A stretch of 36,063 nucleotides of DNA from a virus. This document shows positions 9,752-35,453 of this stretch, piece after piece; within the stretch, counting starts at the first letter, position 1, and each line of letters starts with the position of its first letter. The DNA is taken from positions 1 to 36,063 of IMG/VR virus record IMGVR_UViG_3300003873_000032; one strand, 5' to 3'. The position numbers and the translations under genes were made by a program. Under the pieces are notes generated by a model. It was not told the DNA's origin. It was given only the letters and a program-made list of their open reading frames with translations, and did not search any database.

Positions 9752-10221
9752 TGTGTTCCTTTTAATTAAAAGCTCAACGTAGCCAGACGGTATAATACCT
9801 ACTGGAAGAGGTTGAGCGTTGGTGCTATACTAGACTAAAAACTAGTACTGGTTTATGGTTGTTGCCTAATCACCATAGTAGTATCAGTAGCTATGACTGA
9901 ATCCTCCATAAGAGAGCTGCTATGATGCCTAAGGTACACGTCCTGAACGAACTCCAATAGTCTTTAATACCTAACCCCTGTCCCACTGGAGGTTAGATTT
10001 TGATAAGGGACTGCCATAATATAACGGATTGATACTACTCATTACTGACGCATTAGTCCTCGTCTATGGTTGCTCTACAATGGGCATTTGATTTTTAAAC
10101 CCTCTACTGGGGTAGCACATTACTGTGTTCAAATGGAGTCCACTACATCGGTGCAAACCTGCCCGCTGTGACACTTAGTAGTATATTACCTCAGAGTTTT
10201 TAGACTTCAGTGGACTGGTCT
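9752..10221 (-). ncRNA. 470-nt gene-free block with strong RNA structure (candidate noncoding RNA R1)
   Basis: No open frame with an SD is seen here, but several helices fit one minus-strand RNA. 10138-10144 pairs with 10209-10215. A three-way junction is closed by 10085-10091/10129-10135 and holds a hairpin at 10099-10113 and one at 10116-10127 with a GUAA (GNRA) loop. 9971-9978/9989-9996 is an 8-bp stem that needs a G-U pair only on the minus strand. A long terminal stem closes 9772-9817. No group I intron core or tRNA is seen. The class is unknown. Confidence 0.55.
9768..9817 (-). terminator. terminal stem-loop with short U-run, end of candidate RNA R1
   Basis: GCTCAAC (9817-9811) pairs with GTTGAGC (9778-9772), with an inner CCAG/CTGG and GGTA/TACC stem stacked inside. 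TTTT then follows, and AATTAAA. This is an intrinsic-terminator-like layout, though the U-run is short and the stem is interrupted. It could equally be the 3' structural domain of the RNA. Confidence 0.4.
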
Positions 10222-10305
10222 TTAGCCTCTAATTTGAGGAAGGGTGAAGATGCCTGCTAGGGTTAGTACTATGTAGATAGTTACACCTATTAAGATGTCT
10301 AGCAT
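10222..10305 (-). CDS. putative 27-aa single-span membrane peptide
   Basis: A 27-codon frame starting at ATG 10305 overlaps the stop of the DUF2158-like gene as TAATG, a junction used repeatedly in this genome. The peptide MLDILIGVTIYIVLTLAGIF... is almost wholly hydrophobic until a short TLPQIRG tail, as expected for one membrane span. The SD is weak (GAAG), so expression would depend on coupling. It could be chance, but the exact junction and the clean hydrophobicity favour a gene. Confidence 0.4.
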   Translation of the reverse strand: MLDILIGVTIYIVLTLAGIFTLPQIRG

Positions 10306-20403: not shown

Positions 20404-21360
20404 TTACACACCTGCTACAGGTGCTAATAGATTTTCTCTAGCTTCTTTAGATAGTAGGTTTTTACGGCCTCTGCTGAAGCTACCACAATCTGCACATTTG
20501 TACTGCTGGAATTTAGAGGCGTTAGTGAAGTAGTAACCATCTTCTGTTAAGTGAGATGAACCACATGTTGTACAACGCTTAGTTGTGCTACCAGAGCCTA
20601 CAACAATTGAAGTGTGGGGTTTAGCAAATGGCTTCATCTTCTCATAGATTTCTTCAGTTACTATTACATCCATTTTGTTGTAGGCTTTGTTCTCTGCCCA
20701 TGCTTCATCGTTGCCATGGAGCATTTCAATCCAGATAGTCATACCTGGAAAGTTTTTATGCTCTAATTTACGAGAGCAATTTAGTGACCTAGCAATCCAG
20801 TCAAGAGTGTTACGCTCAAATTTATAGTGGCGCTTAGCTATAGCTAGTGTGTCTATGATACGGTAAGGACTAACAGGTGGTAGGTTATTCATGATTAGAC
20901 GAGTGTTAACCATTGGTGTGTCAAATCGTTTCATATTGTGACCTACTACTATGTCTGCTTCGTTTAGTATTGTTGATAGCTCACCTAGGATATCCTTGTC
21001 ACAGTTGTTGCGATTTGCTCTGTAGTGGACCTTGTCTTCACCTAACCATTTGTAGGCGAAGGATAGGATTGTGATGTCGTCATCACGACGCATCGCATCA
21101 GAGATGTTTACCTGCCAGCGGTTGTAGCTGTAAGCTGTAAAGGGGCTAGTCTCTATGTCCATAACTAAGATACGTGCAGTAGGGTTAGCTACTGTTGATT
21201 TAGTTGGTGCTTTGTACTTCTTTAGGCGAGCTCTTAGTGTAGATGATGGTACTGAAAACATAGCTGCAATATCTACTATAGAGACACCTTCACTGCGTAG
21301 TTGTAGTATCTCGTCCCAATTGTTATTGAGTATCTTTTTAGTCTTTTTATGTGTTGTCAC
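20404..21360 (-). CDS. DEDD (DnaQ-like) 3'-5' exonuclease with HTH and zinc ribbon; separate proofreading subunit
   Basis: 318 aa, starting at GTG 21360 behind AAAGGA. Domains: HTH (about 10-50, VSIVDIAAMFSVPSSTLRARL); exonuclease core with ILVMDIETSP (D68, E70), IVVGHNMKRFDTP and AYNKMDVIVTEEIY (YxxxD); then a C-terminal zinc ribbon CTTCGSS ... YKCADCGSFSRG. In T7-like polymerases this exonuclease is fused to the polymerase. Here the polymerase gene is separate at 22.5-23.9 kb, so this is probably its proofreading partner. The HTH and zinc ribbon suggest independent DNA contact. Confidence 0.82.
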   Translation of the reverse strand: MTTHKKTKKILNNNWDEILQLRSEGVSIVDIAAMFSVPSSTLRARLKKYKAPTKSTVANPTARILVMDIETSPFTAYSYNRWQVNISDAMRRDDDITILSFAYKWLGEDKVHYRANRNNCDKDILGELSTILNEADIVVGHNMKRFDTPMVNTRLIMNNLPPVSPYRIIDTLAIAKRHYKFERNTLDWIARSLNCSRKLEHKNFPGMTIWIEMLHGNDEAWAENKAYNKMDVIVTEEIYEKMKPFAKPHTSIVVGSGSTTKRCTTCGSSHLTEDGYYFTNASKFQQYKCADCGSFSRGRKNLLSKEARENLLAPVAGV

Positions 21361-21369
21361 ATTGTTCCT

Positions 21370-22038
21370 TTAGGGGTGTTTGCTAATTACAGTCTGCAAT
21401 GATTTAGCCATATCTTCTAAGAGTTTAGTAGATTTAGTATAATCTTTATTAACATTTGATGATAATCTAGAATAAGCTATGTTTAAAAGCTTTTCAAGCA
21501 CTGTAAATTGCTTGTTATTATACACTTCGCGTTTTAGAGTTTCAAGCTCCATGATAAGTCCTACATTCTGTCCATTAGTCATTTCACTTAGTACATGGCT
21601 ATATGGAGTTGAACTTACAGGTTTTAAGTTAATTGAAAAATGTGGTATATGTGTACCAATGATATCAATAAAATGTCTGTAGTCAGATGGCTGATAATGT
21701 AAAGTTTCAACTACTGTATCATACTCAAATACTGTTAGCATCTCATCATAAGTGGACTCATGGCAATCAATAAAGTACTCTGCAAACTTACCATGTAAAC
21801 CAACTAATTTGTTTTCTAAGAATTGTGGTAATCCTTTAGACCCAGAGTACATTTTAAAGCCCAAAGCTAGGCAACGATAAATGTTAGCATTTGTATTCAA
21901 GTTTTGTTTTGTAATCTTAAAATTCCAGAAATATTCAGGAGCATTCTCAGCATGCTCACGTATAAATGCCTCTATTGCTTTTTGAGTAGTCATCTTAGAG
22001 AGCTTATCTATTTGTAGTTTATATTGAAAGTTATCCAT
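21370..22038 (-). CDS. M-D-x-F paralog, long form (222 aa)
   Basis: It begins MDNFQYKLQIDKLSKM and is the clearest full-length relative of the 214-aa protein at 24.2-24.8 kb. Shared blocks include STYDEMLTVFEYD with GTYEQFVAAFEGE, HIPHFSI with ILPFSFD, and ELETLKREV...TVLEKLLNIAYSRL with ELEHLKATV...TLLENMLSDAYKQV. It is mostly helical, with no known family. It lies between the polymerase and exonuclease genes. The SD AAAGGATAATA is strong. Function is unknown. Confidence 0.7.
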   Translation of the reverse strand: MDNFQYKLQIDKLSKMTTQKAIEAFIREHAENAPEYFWNFKITKQNLNTNANIYRCLALGFKMYSGSKGLPQFLENKLVGLHGKFAEYFIDCHESTYDEMLTVFEYDTVVETLHYQPSDYRHFIDIIGTHIPHFSINLKPVSSTPYSHVLSEMTNGQNVGLIMELETLKREVYNNKQFTVLEKLLNIAYSRLSSNVNKDYTKSTKLLEDMAKSLQTVISKHP

Positions 22039-22432
22039 TATTATCCTTTATGGTTTTAACCACTTTAGCTATTGCTTCAGCTATGTATGGGTGTACATTA
22101 CGTACTGCTACTAGCCTTGCTAAAGCAATCTCTTGAGATTTAGTTAGTGGAGTTATAGGTGTTGATACCATAGGTTCAATACCTAGAGATAGAAAAAATG
22201 AAGCATAGTTACTAAGCATCATAGGTAATTGCATTTTGCTACCTAGATAGTTAATAAGTGATAACATTTCTTTCATACCATCAGTAGTTTTAACATACTT
22301 AGCATTAAAAGTCCAGTTACTATATATCTCCCTGCAATCAATATACAATTTAGCAGCAGCTTCTTTGTAACCCTTCTTAGTTGTTATAGCCTCTAGCTCA
22401 GCTAGGCGTAGTGTGTAATCAAAGTGGTTCAT
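22031..22432 (-). CDS. M-D-x-F paralog, intermediate form (133 aa)
   Basis: MNHFDYTLRLAELEAITTKKG opens the protein. The following half aligns by eye with the N-terminal half of the 222-aa paralog (YSNWTFNAKYVKTTDGM against YFWNFKITKQNLNTNAN; LGSKMQLPMMLSN against SGSKGLPQFLENK). It looks like a C-terminally shortened copy. It overlaps the next paralog by 8 nt; the SD is AAGGACAAC. Unknown function. Confidence 0.65.
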   Translation of the reverse strand: MNHFDYTLRLAELEAITTKKGYKEAAAKLYIDCREIYSNWTFNAKYVKTTDGMKEMLSLINYLGSKMQLPMMLSNYASFFLSLGIEPMVSTPITPLTKSQEIALARLVAVRNVHPYIAEAIAKVVKTIKDNNG

Positions 22433-22547
22433 TAGTTGTCCTTAATGTAGGTAGCTTGTGTAACATGAGTTGTTTTGTTGTAGTAATTTCTCTAGTACGG
22501 AGTATAACACTATGACGTAGTATAATATGCATTTTATTATTAGACAT
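22419..22547 (-). CDS. putative basic small protein (42 aa)
   Basis: ATG 22547 overlaps the polymerase stop as TAATG. The frame MSNNKMHIILRHSVILRTRE... runs 42 codons and ends inside the next gene. It is basic (several Arg, Lys, His) with no family. The same bases also hold the SD of the downstream paralog, so part of the sequence is constrained for that reason. Support is the junction only. Confidence 0.35.
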   Translation of the reverse strand: MSNNKMHIILRHSVILRTREITTTKQLMLHKLPTLRTTNEPL

Positions 22548-23932
22548 TAGTGAGTTTCTGACCAATTGTTACCAATCAAATAATCTGCTTGTATTGATAA
22601 AGCCATATTAAATTGTTGTTGTATCATGTTGCACCCTCGTACCATTATATCACCAAGTTTCTCAGCATAATCTGTATCACACTGACATTGGAATTCATCA
22701 TGGACAAAAGCCATTTGTGACCATTTCTCACCATGAGGTAACCCTTCTTGAGATGCTAGTGTATGAAAGTTTAACATCCATTTTTTAGCTATTATACCTG
22801 CAGATCCTTGTAAAAGTAAGTTAAGTGCACTATGTGGTGACCGTGAATTAAGTTTACGACCATCAATTGCTGTAACAAATCCAGTATCTTTTGATTCTTT
22901 TTGACAGGCTTTAATAAGTTCTTTAATACCTACAACTTTCTCTAAGAAAGTATCTGATATACGCTTACCATAAATTGTTTGACGTATTAGTATTTCATCA
23001 TATAATACATAGGTATCTGGTTTTAATGGGAAATATTGCTTATCATCCATTATAATAATACGTCCCTCTACTCTCTTCTTAGCTTGTTTATATTCTTTGT
23101 CAGTGTAGTCATCTAGACATGTATCAGTCCAGAGTGTGTTACCACGTACAGTATCACCACTACCATACATCCAGGAAAAAAAGAAAGCTTTACTAGCACT
23201 TCTAGCAGCTTTCATTTCAGGAGTCCTGTCAGAGGCATGATTATCATCTGGCCAATCACGATCGTCTTTAGTCCAGAAACCTGCTAGCTTTGCATGATAC
23301 CAATGCATGTCTTTAGAAAGTACAGCCTTAGCATATAACCCATCATCATACTTTGATAGATAATGTGCAAGTGTACGAACCTCAATGTTTGCAAGGTCAG
23401 CACCAACTACAGCTCTACCAGGAGGTGCATTAAATAGTTTTCTAAACTCTTTAGCAGTTGGTACTTGTGCAAGATTTGGCTTTGAATGGGTTGCCCTATG
23501 GGTGTTAGCACCAATTAGGTCCACTTTATGGTGGATTGAGTGAGTATTCTCATTGTAGTTTTTTAAATAACCACCTTTTGTGTCATAACCTACAGTTCCC
23601 TGGTCCTTATATACACGAAGATACCTATGCAGTAGTTTACCAGCAGGATTGGTCATACCTGTTAATGAATCTGGGTCAACCTTTATACCACCATTTTTGG
23701 TGTAGAAAGGAAAAGTATAGCCATAATCTTCCTCCATCCATTTAATGATATGTTGTCGTGAACCAGGGTTAAAAGGTACATACTTGATTGGCTGATGTTG
23801 ACCACTACGAGTTACAATGATTGTCCTCATGGGTGAGGAGAACCATTTGATGGACCTCTTACCTGGGGGCTTGTAGCTGCCATTTTTGAGGTAGCGACCG
23901 TAGGGTATCTTGTAAGGTGTTAGGTTGTTCAT
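22547..23932 (-). CDS. family A DNA polymerase, T7-type polymerase domain without exonuclease
   Basis: 461 aa. YVPFNPGSRQHI, THRATHSKPNLAQVP, motif A AVVGADLANIEVRTLAHY (D179), fingers KAFFFSWMYGSGD (motif B region), IDGRKLNSRSPHSALNLLLQ and motif C FVHDEFQCQ follow T7 gp5 closely through to the GNNWSETH C-terminus. Motif A has Leu-Ala in place of the usual Ser/Tyr-Ser. The first 50 residues are basic and do not contain an exonuclease or an obvious full thumb. The SD GGAGG is excellent. It replicates phage DNA, probably with the separate exonuclease. Confidence 0.88.
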   Translation of the reverse strand: MNNLTPYKIPYGRYLKNGSYKPPGKRSIKWFSSPMRTIIVTRSGQHQPIKYVPFNPGSRQHIIKWMEEDYGYTFPFYTKNGGIKVDPDSLTGMTNPAGKLLHRYLRVYKDQGTVGYDTKGGYLKNYNENTHSIHHKVDLIGANTHRATHSKPNLAQVPTAKEFRKLFNAPPGRAVVGADLANIEVRTLAHYLSKYDDGLYAKAVLSKDMHWYHAKLAGFWTKDDRDWPDDNHASDRTPEMKAARSASKAFFFSWMYGSGDTVRGNTLWTDTCLDDYTDKEYKQAKKRVEGRIIIMDDKQYFPLKPDTYVLYDEILIRQTIYGKRISDTFLEKVVGIKELIKACQKESKDTGFVTAIDGRKLNSRSPHSALNLLLQGSAGIIAKKWMLNFHTLASQEGLPHGEKWSQMAFVHDEFQCQCDTDYAEKLGDIMVRGCNMIQQQFNMALSIQADYLIGNNWSETH

Positions 23933-26541: not shown

Positions 26542-26746
26542 TTATATGTATTGCCATAGCTTTGCTGAAAGTGCTACTATGTGTTTAGCCTTGCTTAGTG
26601 AGTAAGTTGTTGAATGTAGCTGAGTCATTAGTTGAGTAGCTTGAACTGGTAATAGATCGCTAGTAGTTTCCTCAAGGAGGGGACATAGTGCCTTCTGGGT
26701 CAGATTTTAATGTATTGTAGAGGATTTGGTATTTGAAGTTGTCCAT
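26542..26746 (-). pseudogene. M-D-x-F paralog broken by a +1 frameshift
   Basis: ATG 26746, behind AAGGACTAGCA, begins MDNFKYQILYNTLKSDPEG, the family signature, but meets TGA after 24 codons. If one base is skipped in the CCCC tract near 26679-26682, the frame continues for 46 codons (LLEETTSDLLPVQATQL...) to TAA at 26542, only eight bases before the next paralog. Options are a single-base insertion, a sequencing error in a homopolymer, or programmed +1 frameshifting at UCC-CCU. The downstream half remains free of stops, which favours a recent or programmed event. Confidence 0.55.
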
Positions 26747-26748
26747 TG

Positions 26749-26988
26749 CTAGTCCTTAGAGATATCTATGAGTAGTTGTGCGTAGCGTGTGTAGGTAGCT
26801 ATAATATTACCATGAGACATATGGGGGTGTAATTTTTCTATAAACTGCTTGTCTATAGATAGATCACTATTCCTATCATTTATGGTAGTATTCAGCCTAA
26901 CGCTACAAAACTTGATGGTGGTATCTAATTGTATAAGCTCATTGGAAGCTATTAGGTAGTACGTGAGTTTAGTTTGAAAGTCATCTAC
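26749..26988 (-). pseudogene. M-D-x-F paralog with GTA in place of the start codon
   Basis: A 79-codon open frame reads (V)DDFQTKLTYYLIASNEL..., the family signature with GTA exactly where ATG should be. Upstream is AAGGACACTA, with normal SD spacing. No other ATG or GTG exists before the body of the frame; the first internal Met is near residue 57. It fits exactly between the neighbours, ending 3 nt before the next start. Either a point mutation killed initiation, or a non-standard start is used, or the base is a sequence error. Confidence 0.5.
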
Positions 26989-28773: not shown

Positions 28774-29863
28774 CGTTTATATTCAGCAGTAGTCGTTAAT
28801 TACTGCCCGCACCATTATGTGCAGCTACGTGTCTCCACGTAGACTAGACTATATCTTAATCTTTATTTATTTAACTTTCTAGAACAAGGTAGGCAATACT
28901 GAATTGCCCCTTCTAGAGATCTTCTCATAGTTTGTGACCAAGGACTACTAATCTCTTGTAAACAATTATTACATGTGTACACACCAAACCACTTATACTT
29001 AGGTTCACCACCTATAGTAAGTAATTTATATTGCACACCAATTATTGTTCGTCCACCAATGTCTTCACCAATATGAGTCATGAGTTGTTCAAAAGTATTA
29101 GTTTGAGTAGTTTTCTTACTAGCCTTTATACTTTTAGCTCTGACATTCAGATCTTGATTATCTGCTGAATGTTGCATATTTTCTTGGTGTGTTACCCATT
29201 CAAGATTCTCAACAGTATTATTAGTACCATCTTTATCTTTATGGTTGACAAAAGGTTTATTATCAGGATTAGGCAAAAAAGCTTCAGCAACTAGTCTGTG
29301 CATATGTACAGTATAATTAGTACCATCATTAGATAATGAGGCCTTTATGTATGTTGTATGCATTTGCTTATGGTAGCTGCCTGAGCGTATTTTAGTACCA
29401 CTTTTTGTTGTCACACGTAGATTACCCTTGTTTGACACCTCGTAACGAGGTCCATACTTAGGGTCTACAGGTTTGAAAATTTCTTCATTTTTCATTATAC
29501 TTCCTTAAATTAGATAAGTAAGTATACCAAAAAATCTCTTAAAGTTATATAAAGATTTCCCCCATTTCCACTCCACTAGAAGTGTACGAGCATGATGCTC
29601 TAGTCGTTGAACCTTCTCCTGGTTACGGAGCTTGGCTGCTGATTGCCTCTATTACCTACTTTTCAAACCGTCAACATCTGCTTTCGCGATGCTTGTGGTG
29701 TAGATACTTAACAAGGGTTCCCAGCAATTAAAGGGATGCAAAACACACATCACTGTGTGTAAGGGCTGTAACATTACCACACTACAGCCTAATACTTTCA
29801 CTACTATCATTTGTTTATTCTCATCATAGTGTTGGTACTAGGTGTAAATGTGGTATGTTGTTA
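28774..29863 (-). mobile_element. group I intron (about 1,090 nt) inside the MoxR ATPase gene
   Basis: Exon 1 ends in U (GTGGT) and the intron ends in G (AAACG), the group I rule; removal restores ...ENLSG-IPDF... in frame. ACCAC at 29854-29850 can pair with the exon end as P1. Core signatures on the minus strand are AATTGCTGGGAACCC (about 29729-29715), GGCAATCAGCAGCCAAGC (29647-29630), GAAGGTTCAACGACTA (P7 5' side, about 29616-29601) and AAGATATAGTC (P7 3' side, near 28857-28847). A 7-bp P9-like hairpin with GAGA loop is at 28825-28842. An HNH gene lies in the P8 region. Exact boundaries are inferred. Confidence 0.8.
28863..29495 (-). CDS. intron-encoded HNH homing endonuclease (NUMOD4-HNH type)
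   Basis: 210 aa. The N-terminus (EIFKPVDPKYGPRYEVSNKG) is NUMOD4-like. The HNH_3 core follows: VHMHRLVAEAFLPNP, PFVNHKDKDGTNNTVENLEWVT, with the H, N and H/N residues. The C-terminus holds a zinc ribbon (YTCNNCLQE ... QYCLPCSRKLNK). It is encoded inside a group I intron and probably cuts intronless MoxR genes to spread the intron. The SD AAGGAAGTATA is strong, so it is translated from the precursor or excised intron. Confidence 0.82.
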   Translation of the reverse strand: MKNEEIFKPVDPKYGPRYEVSNKGNLRVTTKSGTKIRSGSYHKQMHTTYIKASLSNDGTNYTVHMHRLVAEAFLPNPDNKPFVNHKDKDGTNNTVENLEWVTHQENMQHSADNQDLNVRAKSIKASKKTTQTNTFEQLMTHIGEDIGGRTIIGVQYKLLTIGGEPKYKWFGVYTCNNCLQEISSPWSQTMRRSLEGAIQYCLPCSRKLNK

Positions 29864-33146: not shown

Positions 33147-33881
33147 CTAATCCTTTAGTTTTACTTGTCTTTCTTCTAGTGAAGGGAAGTAGATACCAGT
33201 TAGGTAGCCACGTCCTCTTAAGTTGTAGCAACAGCCAGTGTCAATGTTGACACAGCCATCTGAGTAATGAGGCTCTGGTACTATGTCAGGACCTTGCATG
33301 CGTGCATACTTTTTAGGTGAGACATTGTTTACAGGTGTGTGGCCATAGATGTTGTAGTATGGCGACCTATTCTTTATCCGTGTTGGTTGATCTCTATCCC
33401 ATAGGAAGTCAAAGACTCTACGCTTTGCTGACGATAGGTCTTTGTATGAGCACCACGTGTGGGATACCAGTAGCTCTAAGTTGTCAGAGTCTTTGATACC
33501 AGTTTCTATATATAGTGGTAGCTTAGCTAGCCACTCTATGTCAGTAATGAGGTTATCAATGGATGAGTACTGATTAAATACATCATTACCACCATTGTAA
33601 AACCAGTCAGACTCATTAAGAATATCCTTTATTGATTTATCAGGGTAGTCACGATATATATATAAATCTTCTAGACATTCCTCAGCCATTAGCTCATGGT
33701 TACCTTTAACACACTCTATGTTATTTGAGCGCATAAAATCTACTACTCCTTCGGAGTCTTTACCACGGTCTATAAGGTCACCTACACAGATTATTCGTGT
33801 AGTTGAGCGGTCGATGTCTTTGATGAGCTCTTTTAGCTCTGATAGGCATCCGTGGATGTCACCTATTACAAATGCTTTCAT
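33147..33881 (-). CDS. PPP-type Ser/Thr protein phosphatase (lambda phosphatase-like)
   Basis: The start is ATG 33881 (MKAFVIGDIHGC), behind AAAGGAAACTA; a 23-residue extension to 33950 has no SD and runs into the structured RNA block. The 244-aa product has GDIHG, VGDLIDRGKDS, GNHELM, a VSHTW histidine and YGHTPV, the PPP metal and phosphate residues also found in lambda PP. It removes phosphate from Ser/Thr (and sometimes Tyr/His) or from small molecules such as diadenosine tetraphosphate. Co-located with two other metallophosphoesterases. Confidence 0.85.
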   Translation of the reverse strand: MKAFVIGDIHGCLSELKELIKDIDRSTTRIICVGDLIDRGKDSEGVVDFMRSNNIECVKGNHELMAEECLEDLYIYRDYPDKSIKDILNESDWFYNGGNDVFNQYSSIDNLITDIEWLAKLPLYIETGIKDSDNLELLVSHTWCSYKDLSSAKRRVFDFLWDRDQPTRIKNRSPYYNIYGHTPVNNVSPKKYARMQGPDIVPEPHYSDGCVNIDTGCCYNLRGRGYLTGIYFPSLEERQVKLKD

Positions 33882-34183
33882 TAGTTTCCTTTTATAACTT
33901 ATAGCTAGTAACCCAGAGTTACTACTTATAAATTGTATATGATGTACCACCCAGGGTAGACCTGGATCTCTCGTTTAATCGACGAGGGCTCTAGTTGAGC
34001 TAGTGGTACGGTTGTAGTTAGTCAATGACAACTCAGAGGTCTCACCAGAATGCATACTGTGAGACATGGTACACGTTTCCACCAGAGAATTGTTAACCGT
34101 AATGATGCATTGTCGTCGCCGGCTCTCTGGATAGCTATAGCTTGTGTAACTACTTGTGCAGTTAACGTCAGGCTGACGGGGTG

Positions 34184-34237
34184 TGTACACTGAAGGAATC
34201 GAACCTACGTGAACTAACCTACCAGCTAGAGTGTACA
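34184..34237 (-). ncRNA. 54-nt tRNA-like fold without an anticodon arm
   Basis: A 7-bp perfect acceptor-like stem (34231-34237 with 34184-34190) encloses a D-like arm with GG in its loop (about 34214-34229, 4 bp with G-U) and a T-arm (34192-34208) whose loop TTCGATT is canonical (stem 4 of 5 pairs). Between them are five bases where an anticodon arm should be. It is therefore not a normal tRNA; it resembles the tRNA-like domain of larger RNAs or a degenerate tRNA. It lies inside block R2. Confidence 0.5.
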
Positions 34238-34557
34238 TATGAGACTCCCAAGTTGGTAACTTGGGCTACATACGTAGTTGTTCAACAACTATCTCGATGT
34301 ATCGGATTTAAAGTGTAGTTTATATTCTATATAACTACCAAGGTATCCAACATTTCACGTAGTTGTTGGCTTAACGAGCATTGCTGTCATAATGCTAGAG
34401 AACTTAACCGTGAAGGTTAAGATTTTAGAGGTGGTAAGACTCCAAATAGCATACCATCACTATTGCTAGCTTCCTATCACCTTTTCTAGAATTTGTAAGG
34501 TGCAAGTCTTGTGGGCTGTGATGTACCTTCGAAGTATGCTCTTTGGAATTTTACAGA

Positions 34558-34632
34558 CCGGCACCAAGGAATCTAACCTTGCCATATAGCTTTTACACGT
34601 GCTATTACTATAGTGGTTACACTACATGCCGG
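34558..34632 (-). ncRNA. tRNA-like cloverleaf with 10-nt anticodon-position loop
   Basis: The acceptor-like stem is CCGGCAT/GTGCCGG (34626-34632 with 34558-34564, last pair T-G). The D-position hairpin is at 34612-34623 (4 bp, 4-nt loop). The anticodon-position hairpin is at 34586-34605 (5 bp perfect, 10-nt loop). The T-arm at 34565-34581 has a perfect 5-bp stem and loop TTAGATT, which keeps the U-x-R-A T-loop pattern. The long loop and six-base linker are wrong for a decoding tRNA. It may be a domain of R2 or a decayed tRNA. Confidence 0.45.
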
Positions 34633-34997
34633 ATATAAATGGGGGCACTTGTTGGTAACCCAGTAGTACAAAACTGGAGGAACTTTTAGAGTCTATAACC
34701 AAATGACTACCCCGTTTGTATCAACGCTAGTGAGGTTATCTATCGTGTACATTATTAACGTCCAGTATGCACAATTGGACTTATAGTGACCAATAACTTA
34801 GGTCGTAGCTTCATGTAGATTTTATAGTCTCTTATGACTTGTAGAGCTTAGTGCGATAACTATGTCACCATAGTTAAAGGGTTCTCGTTGTTGTCCCACT
34901 CTACATGAGTAATTTACCTTACAGGGTCCATTCACGATGCTTGCAGCATCTAATGGCTCTTAGTCTCGTCTAGCTGCAAGCAGTCCTAAGCCGTTGT

Positions 34998-35453
34998 TTA
35001 TTGTTGATAGATGTAATAGGTTGTACCATTAATCTCTTCAATGTATTCCATACCATCATATCTATTTAGTATTTCACCAGTGTCACCAGTACAGAAGTCA
35101 TCAATCCATGCATTTTCATCTATGTAGGGATGAATAAACTCTGGAACTTCAGGTAGTACTATATCATTGAAGTAGTATTCAGCCTCTTCAATTACACATC
35201 TATCCGTTTCATCAGCAGTTAGTACCAGCCATTCATCATCATCTATTAAGGTCTCAGCTTCCTCATACTTGAAGCCCTGACTGGTTGCAAGGGCTATTAT
35301 CTTCTCGCATTCTTGGTCGCCAAATAGGTTAGTTTTAACATAAGATTTTATGAATGCTTCTAAGTCATCACCGTTGCCTTCAATTTGCCATAGGAAGAAT
35401 TGGGGCTCTAACTCAAAGTGATCAAATATTGATTGCATTGTGTCAGTTGACAT
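34998..35453 (-). CDS. acidic protein of unknown function (151 aa)
   Basis: MSTDTMQSIFDHFELEPQFF... is strongly acidic throughout (YEEAETLIDDDEWLVLT, VIEEAEYYFND). The C-terminus, ENAWIDDFCTGDTGEILNRYDG then TYYIYQQ, follows a pattern seen at the end of several phage proteins of unknown role. The high negative charge would suit an inhibitor or DNA mimic, but nothing direct shows this. It overlaps the upstream gene by 11 nt. Confidence 0.6.
   Translation of the reverse strand: MSTDTMQSIFDHFELEPQFFLWQIEGNGDDLEAFIKSYVKTNLFGDQECEKIIALATSQGFKYEEAETLIDDDEWLVLTADETDRCVIEEAEYYFNDIVLPEVPEFIHPYIDENAWIDDFCTGDTGEILNRYDGMEYIEEINGTTYYIYQQ

Follow-up and report, generated by a model that had tools for sequence, protein, structure and literature searches.

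This study addressed whether a 1.1-kb block without genes (positions 33882-34997) in a 36-kb phage fragment encodes a functional RNA. The window, which is the whole stretch of 36,063 nt that we analyzed (IMG/VR record IMGVR_UViG_3300003873_000032), carries nearly all of its genes on the minus strand, and a preliminary description made from the sequence alone had proposed that the block specifies a large structured RNA on that strand. Compensatory changes seen among three phages, together with the absence of a conserved gene, support the proposal. We consider it likely (probability of approximately 0.82) that the block encodes a structured minus-strand noncoding RNA of ~0.8-1.1 kb, belonging to a new family of large ornate phage RNAs; its transcription and ends are inferred.

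Gene content of the block and its neighbors

The region 34239-34997 contained no ORF of at least 60 aa. Aside from the extended frame of the downstream gene itself, 33882-34238 contained one 87-aa mechanical ORF (33975-34238), for which PHROGs and tblastn gave no match. The counterpart loci in three related phages (G008, G003, and G005) were likewise gene-free; no conserved ORF was found across the block in the window or in these counterparts, and membership in protein-coding genes was not met. The original claim that 33882-34997 holds no supported gene was thus upheld by the ORF list, PHROGs, and tblastn.

Directly upstream of the block lies a minus-strand gene encoding a 151-aa protein of no family (34998-35453), a homolog of which (33% identity) is directly upstream of the G003 block. 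The gene directly downstream (33147-33881, minus strand) encodes a NinI-like calcineurin phosphoesterase, and a terminal hairpin (TAGTAAC-TCTGG-GTTACTA, 33906-33924, minus strand) can be read in the sequence just ahead of the ribosome-binding site of the next gene. No convincing promoter or terminator was found for the block RNA itself or between its elements, and the exact ends of the candidate are uncertain.

Related phages carry counterparts of the block

Related contigs were identified through the PhoH protein, and their whole records were then searched with the block; relatives were reached only through IMG/VR, and three to four were found. Gene-free blocks were present in three related phage contigs; for two of them the match lay in sequence or structure, and for the third in synteny and shared elements. 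G008 (IMGVR_UViG_3300026512_000006) was 76% identical over the first ~105 nt of the block (E 5e-15), with the match at positions 997-891 adjoining the contig end. In G003 (IMGVR_UViG_3300033388_002987), the homolog of the upstream gene was followed by 1.5 kb without any ORF of at least 60 aa. G005 (IMGVR_UViG_3300026533_000003) contained a gene-poor region at 66560-68700. A 3′ element of 53 nt in this region also occurs in G003 (94% identity), and a pseudoknot element of 26 nt also occurs in G008; an ORF splits the region, and the boundaries of its RNA are therefore uncertain.

Searches for homologs through the flanking proteins and the polymerase exonuclease yielded one distant phosphatase relative and nothing otherwise. 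The blastn search of the window block against 50,697 phage records gave no match; the G003 block showed no DNA similarity to phage records, and G005 showed tRNA matches only. The pattern GAATGGRCCCTGTAA was found in 51 stretches, the sole real one being in G008. Genes beside the G008 block (L028 1060-1600, minus strand) were interrupted by TGA codons and are probably broken genes; TGA recoding in G008 was not supported genome-wide.

The 5′ domain is a covarying pseudoknot

In the 5′ domain of the block (34905-34995, minus strand), a helix (34952-34956/34928-34932) surrounds a 4-bp hairpin (34947-34950/34936-34939), the 7-nt loop of which (34940-34946) pairs with an upstream strand (34974-34980), forming a pseudoknot within the first 91 nt. 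Further helices were identified at 34986-34990/34959-34963 and 34919-34922/34909-34912. We compared the window with G008 in an ungapped 91-column alignment comprising five helices and 25 pairs, in which two helices cross as the pseudoknot. The results revealed that all pairs (25/25) form in both phages, with seven double changes and no single-side changes. In a control in which the partners were slid by 1-3 columns, 28-40% were paired, with 0-1 double changes. The P value for random placement of the differences was 2e-5; this count also included two competing outer pairs.

A covariance model built from the nested helices only, leaving out the loop-upstream helix, was searched with filters off and identified one further notable site, G005 68607-68526, within the gene-free region (19.8 bits, E 0.02-0.03; next best, 1.7). 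The hairpin at this site, GATA-CTAGTAG-TATC, has a 7-nt loop complementary to an upstream CTACTAG; the equivalents are GATG-CTGCAAG-CATC with CTTGCAG in the window and GGTA-CTATGAA-TACC with TTCATAG in G008. When the three sequences were considered together, the 16 pairs of the pseudoknot were paired in 48/48 cells, and seven pairs, or nine cells, were changed on both sides (0/500 shuffles). Within the loop-upstream helix, four of the seven pairs carried double changes, as many as three pair types were represented, and pairing was 100% (0/500 shuffles). A descriptor scan detected the architecture in the window, G008, and G005 each, with ~0.1-0.2 expected per shuffled block; neither the descriptor nor the covariance model found it in the G003 block. 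This comparison of phages shows that selection maintains the 5′ domain as a folded RNA. The covariation statistics rest on two or three sequences, and strong covariation was limited to the 5′ ~140 nt; elsewhere, the support came from short elements that the phages have in common but arrange in different orders.

Conserved elements downstream of the 5′ domain

An 8-bp hairpin with a GUGA tetraloop (34857-34876, minus strand) has a counterpart in G008, where the loop is kept on a compensated stem (CAATACC-GTGA-GGTATTG). Around this hairpin, a closing helix read from the sequences (34840-34905, minus strand) joins TGTAGAG (34899-34905) with CTCTACA (34840-34846); in G008, GTAGAGAG pairs with CTCCCTAC at 7/8 positions. 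The core element (34712-34784, minus strand), which comprises a GTCCA...TGGAC hairpin followed by TTAA and TACAAACG, is common to G008 and G003, in which it appears as CTCCATTTGNCTTCATNGGAG ... TTAAGACAC ... AATACAAAC. Written more fully, the G008 and G003 core reads CTCCATTTG(C/T)CTTCAT(C/T)GGAG...TTAAGACAC...AATACAAAC. Across the window, G008, and G003, this element includes a G-C to C-G swap.

A second, A-rich H-type pseudoknot (AGCGTTG-P2-ACGCTATATAAAAGAAC-P2′), the P2 of which is compensated between the G008 and G005 blocks, matched no Rfam family. An H-type pseudoknot with an A-rich loop (ACGCTATATAAAAGAACTGC) was also observed at L114 6846-6890, ~10 nt upstream of a phage tmRNA; this 183-kb phage contig, which appears to be unrelated, has 23 tRNAs next to the tmRNA. 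The three matches to the A-rich pattern in bacterial genomes were attributed to chance and apparently lie within coding sequence.

These elements could instead be several separate small structured RNAs (a pseudoknot sRNA, a core RNA, and tRNA-like RNAs) sharing one gap. This possibility is favored by the position of GACTATAAAATC, which precedes the core in the window but comes behind it in G003, by the position of the A-rich pseudoknot, which is before the tRNA-like element in G008 and after it in G005, and by the ORF within the G005 region. Against it, the search for promoters and terminators between the elements was unsuccessful, and the 5′ domain, core, and tRNA-like element occur in the same order in the window and G008. 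We lean slightly toward one long molecule.

tRNA-like modules and T-loops

Three cloverleaf-like elements were identified on the minus strand of the block. The first (34554-34636) has no normal D-loop or anticodon loop and was called from its fold and its counterparts (TATCCGG...CCGGTC) in G008 (L028 271-184) and G005 (L047 7321-7232). Its acceptor and T arms stay paired through substitutions, whereas its anticodon arms do not persist; the counterparts, boundaries, and T-arm/acceptor compensation were judged by eye, the MAFFT alignment being too poor for pair counting. The second (34183-34239) comprises a 7-bp acceptor (GTACACT/AGTGTAC), a D-like arm, and a T-arm with the loop TTCGATT, lacks an anticodon arm, and is weak alone (z -1.35). 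The third, near the 3′ end (33944-34009; z -3.9, 0/200 shuffles), has a 7-bp acceptor (GTACCAC/GTGGTAC), a D-like arm, a 5-bp anticodon-like arm, and a T-like arm with a loop of only 5 nt. Because scanning the window block with a generic tRNA descriptor gave no excess over shuffles, the calls in the window rest on individual folds and counterparts. ARAGORN identified no tRNA in the window except weak ones at relaxed thresholds, and neither ARAGORN nor Rfam supported a canonical tRNA array with normal anticodon arms.

T-loop hairpins numbered 16 in the sense and 0 in the antisense orientation in 8 kb of blocks versus 33 in 942 kb elsewhere. These all-block statistics include some blocks noticed partly by their tRNA-like parts; a test restricted to the three homology-chosen blocks, which avoids that, gave 4 versus 0 (p 3e-6).

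tRNA-like elements were also observed outside the window. G005 carries a tRNA-like gene (L047 7588-7745, minus strand) that encodes CCA and whose acceptor, D, and T arms are perfect, but its anticodon loop contains an insertion of ~85 nt. A more distant relative contains a 1.3-kb gene-poor block (L035, G006:C1:70336-71640, minus strand) with several tRNA-like elements that have abnormal anticodon arms, and a TGTAAGT T-loop hairpin.

The block could alternatively be a decaying tRNA array, made up of one-time phage tRNA genes that are separated by spacers and have degenerate anticodon and T arms. The occurrence of all three cloverleaf-like elements on a single strand is consistent with this explanation, as are the 5-bp/7-nt anticodon-like arm in one of them, the weak ARAGORN calls, and the more complete tRNA-like elements of the relatives, including the G005 element with CCA and its insertion. 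We consider decay unlikely, however: the best conserved parts (the 5′ pseudoknot and the core element) are not tRNA-like and covary, the acceptor and T arms of 34554-34636 remain paired through substitutions while anticodon arms are lost, and canonical tRNAs exist elsewhere in G003.

Another possibility, for which no functional data are available, is that the RNA is a tRNA mimic that binds tRNA-handling factors, serving as a decoy that sequesters host tRNA-binding or tRNA-cutting proteins, for example, those of phage defense. The retention of acceptor and T arms where anticodon arms are missing or replaced favors such a role, as does the enrichment of T-loops. Nevertheless, T-loops are also common as purely structural motifs in large RNAs, and an anticodon-nuclease decoy would be expected to retain the anticodon loop.

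Stems, strand, and folding energy

The stems named in the preliminary description were all present in the sequence. Its GUGA hairpin was confirmed (z -4.7, 0/200 shuffles), and its T-loop arm at 34565-34581 proved to be the T-arm of the predicted cloverleaf 34554-34636 (z -2.4); the tRNA-like pieces it had noted were real and more numerous than it had recognized. Of its two long-range pairings, that of 34940-34947 with 34973-34980 held, its core (34940-34946 with 34974-34980) being backed by covariation. The pairing of 34812-34819 with 34900-34907 held only in part; it is present in the sequence but unsupported by comparison, and in G008 its 5′ strand finds a better partner in the counterpart of 34840-34846. 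The strand, which had been argued from G-U pairs, is better assigned by the 16 sense versus 0 antisense T-loop hairpins over all blocks. Covariation in related phages had been suggested as a check, and compensatory changes were found, strong only in the 5′ ~140 nt.

It had also been stated that a folding energy no better than that of shuffled controls would refute the proposal. The minus strand of the block (999 nt) folded better than shuffles (MFE -283.6, z -3.9), but this value is not distinctive. Folding energy alone cannot establish the block RNA because the plus strand reached z -2.95 and values of z -3 to -5 were attained by many coding windows in this genome. The blocks of the relatives were weak in this respect (z -1.7, -1.7, and +0.35), and we rejected folding energy as proof of an RNA.

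Comparison with known RNA families

We searched 4227 Rfam families, including GOLLD and ROOL. At gathering thresholds, cmscan of the window identified only a group I intron (29457-29795, minus strand; 50.2 bits), which has an HNH/NUMOD4 endonuclease gene alongside and homologous sequence in G005, G003, and G008. Permissive cmscan of the block with relaxed filters yielded chance-level matches only. The covariance models of GOLLD (RF02032) and ROOL (RF03087) gave no match to the block at E<=10 by cmscan and targeted search, nor to L028 and L047 at E up to 1, and membership was met for neither family. As controls, the GOLLD model was weakly positive in five control genomes, none over the cut-off, and the ROOL model was positive in none, which makes the ROOL negative weaker. 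The preliminary description was therefore right to assign the block to neither family, and its suggestion of a new class is consistent with the lack of a credible match in Rfam and of any match among the 50,697 phage records.

Like GOLLD, the block is large, ornate, and phage-encoded and contains pseudoknots, and GOLLD can be associated with tRNAs; the conserved 3′ region of GOLLD was not found in it. Of the setting typical of GOLLD (a phage or prophage and an RNA of ~800 nt or longer), the phage contig and a 1.1-kb gap were confirmed, the RNA length not being established. ROOL is also large, ornate, and pseudoknotted, occurs in phages and prophages, and often lies near tRNA islands; this location was not met, as no canonical tRNA was found in the window, which is only a fragment. 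A divergent GOLLD or ROOL member missed by the Rfam models would fit the size, phage context, pseudoknots, and tRNA-like content, and the 5′ half of GOLLD is variable (PMC12286853). The negative searches of the block and of L028 and L047 make this very unlikely. With tRNA and tmRNA, the block shares cloverleaf-like elements with acceptor and T arms; it differs in the lack of an ARAGORN or Rfam call, in its missing or abnormal anticodon or T arms, and in the embedding of these elements in a longer structure.

In Vibrio phage ICP1, a ~1-kb orf-less gap yields the most abundant phage transcript, of ~800 nt (PMC7567579), and the lncRNA of ICP1 relatives can be highly divergent in sequence though its presence is conserved (PMC9040626). 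The gap between gp139 and gp140 resembles the block in size and in lying on the strand of its neighbors, its lncRNA also has no credible Rfam match, and the two phages have related DNA polymerase exonucleases. In contrast, the ICP1 lncRNA is located by lysis genes, and its end appears to be a hairpin followed by a T-run; neither feature was seen at the block. Transcription of the ICP1 lncRNA has been shown, whereas no transcript data exist for the window phage. We rejected it as a homolog because no recognizable sequence or pseudoknot match was found. The block RNA is likely of the same kind as GOLLD, ROOL, and the ICP1 lncRNA, yet no member of GOLLD or ROOL.

Proposed model of the block RNA

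The reading of the block as a new RNA family is supported because the relatives keep their blocks gene-free, the stems are compensated, the core is shared, the T-loops are sense-only, the upstream gene is homologous in G003, and ICP1 provides a precedent. That the block gives a folded functional RNA is very likely even without transcript data. In this model, the RNA would start with the conserved pseudoknot domain, a few bases past the upstream gene's stop codon, continue with the GUGA-capped hairpin domain and the conserved core element, and hold several tRNA-like modules, some with T-loops, without normal anticodon or T arms. It would be made within a minus-strand operon transcript; because neither a promoter nor a terminator of its own could be identified convincingly, processing from that transcript is likely. 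Host enzymes, possibly RNase P at the tRNA-like modules, may trim the RNA, which would build up in the infected cell as a stable RNA or RNP scaffold, similar to the ICP1 lncRNA, GOLLD, and ROOL.

The abundance of the ICP1 transcript and the RNA-only cages that GOLLD and ROOL form in vitro (PMC12286853) make a scaffold or assembly role the leading functional guess, with the binding of tRNA-handling factors second. The scaffold role, inferred by analogy, falls a little short of even odds, and some other role is only slightly less likely; the multimeric assembly raised in the preliminary description likewise remains an inference without assembly data.

Few classes of large ornate phage RNAs have been defined, GOLLD, ROOL, and the ICP1 lncRNA among them, and the functions of these abundant molecules are unknown. 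Adding a family that has a covarying pseudoknot and repeated tRNA-like modules, along with a similar second locus in the same phages, widens this set, suggests module mixing, and provides testable sequences. Because an analogous RNA is present in ICP1, which can be worked with in the laboratory, the function of such RNAs becomes approachable.

A second RNA-like locus and other features of the window

A second gene-free, RNA-like locus (9766-10226, minus strand) lies upstream of two small ORFs and nrdA. It contains conserved islands that are 87-94% identical at the syntenic place in G002 (L059 3022-3585) and G008 (80720-81130, L051, minus strand); it had no Rfam match, and its folding z was near 0. 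In the G002 copy, a T-arm precedes a D-arm, forming a permuted tRNA elbow closed by GTAAG/CTTAC. These observations suggest that each genome carries two RNAs of the block's kind. A bolder reading, which we offer only tentatively, is that of a new class of modular phage RNA whose tRNA-elbow (T-loop/D-arm) units and pseudoknots recombine in new arrangements from locus to locus and from phage to phage. Each genome would then encode two or more RNAs of this class, one of them with its T-arm/D-arm order swapped, and tRNA pieces would build a large RNA machine or shell.

Elsewhere in the window, a 423-nt gap without ORFs (26558-26980) had no match in the relatives. The DNA polymerase (20404-23932, minus strand) is split into separate exonuclease and polymerase genes, and the exonuclease is closest to that of Vibrio phage ICP1 (38% identity).
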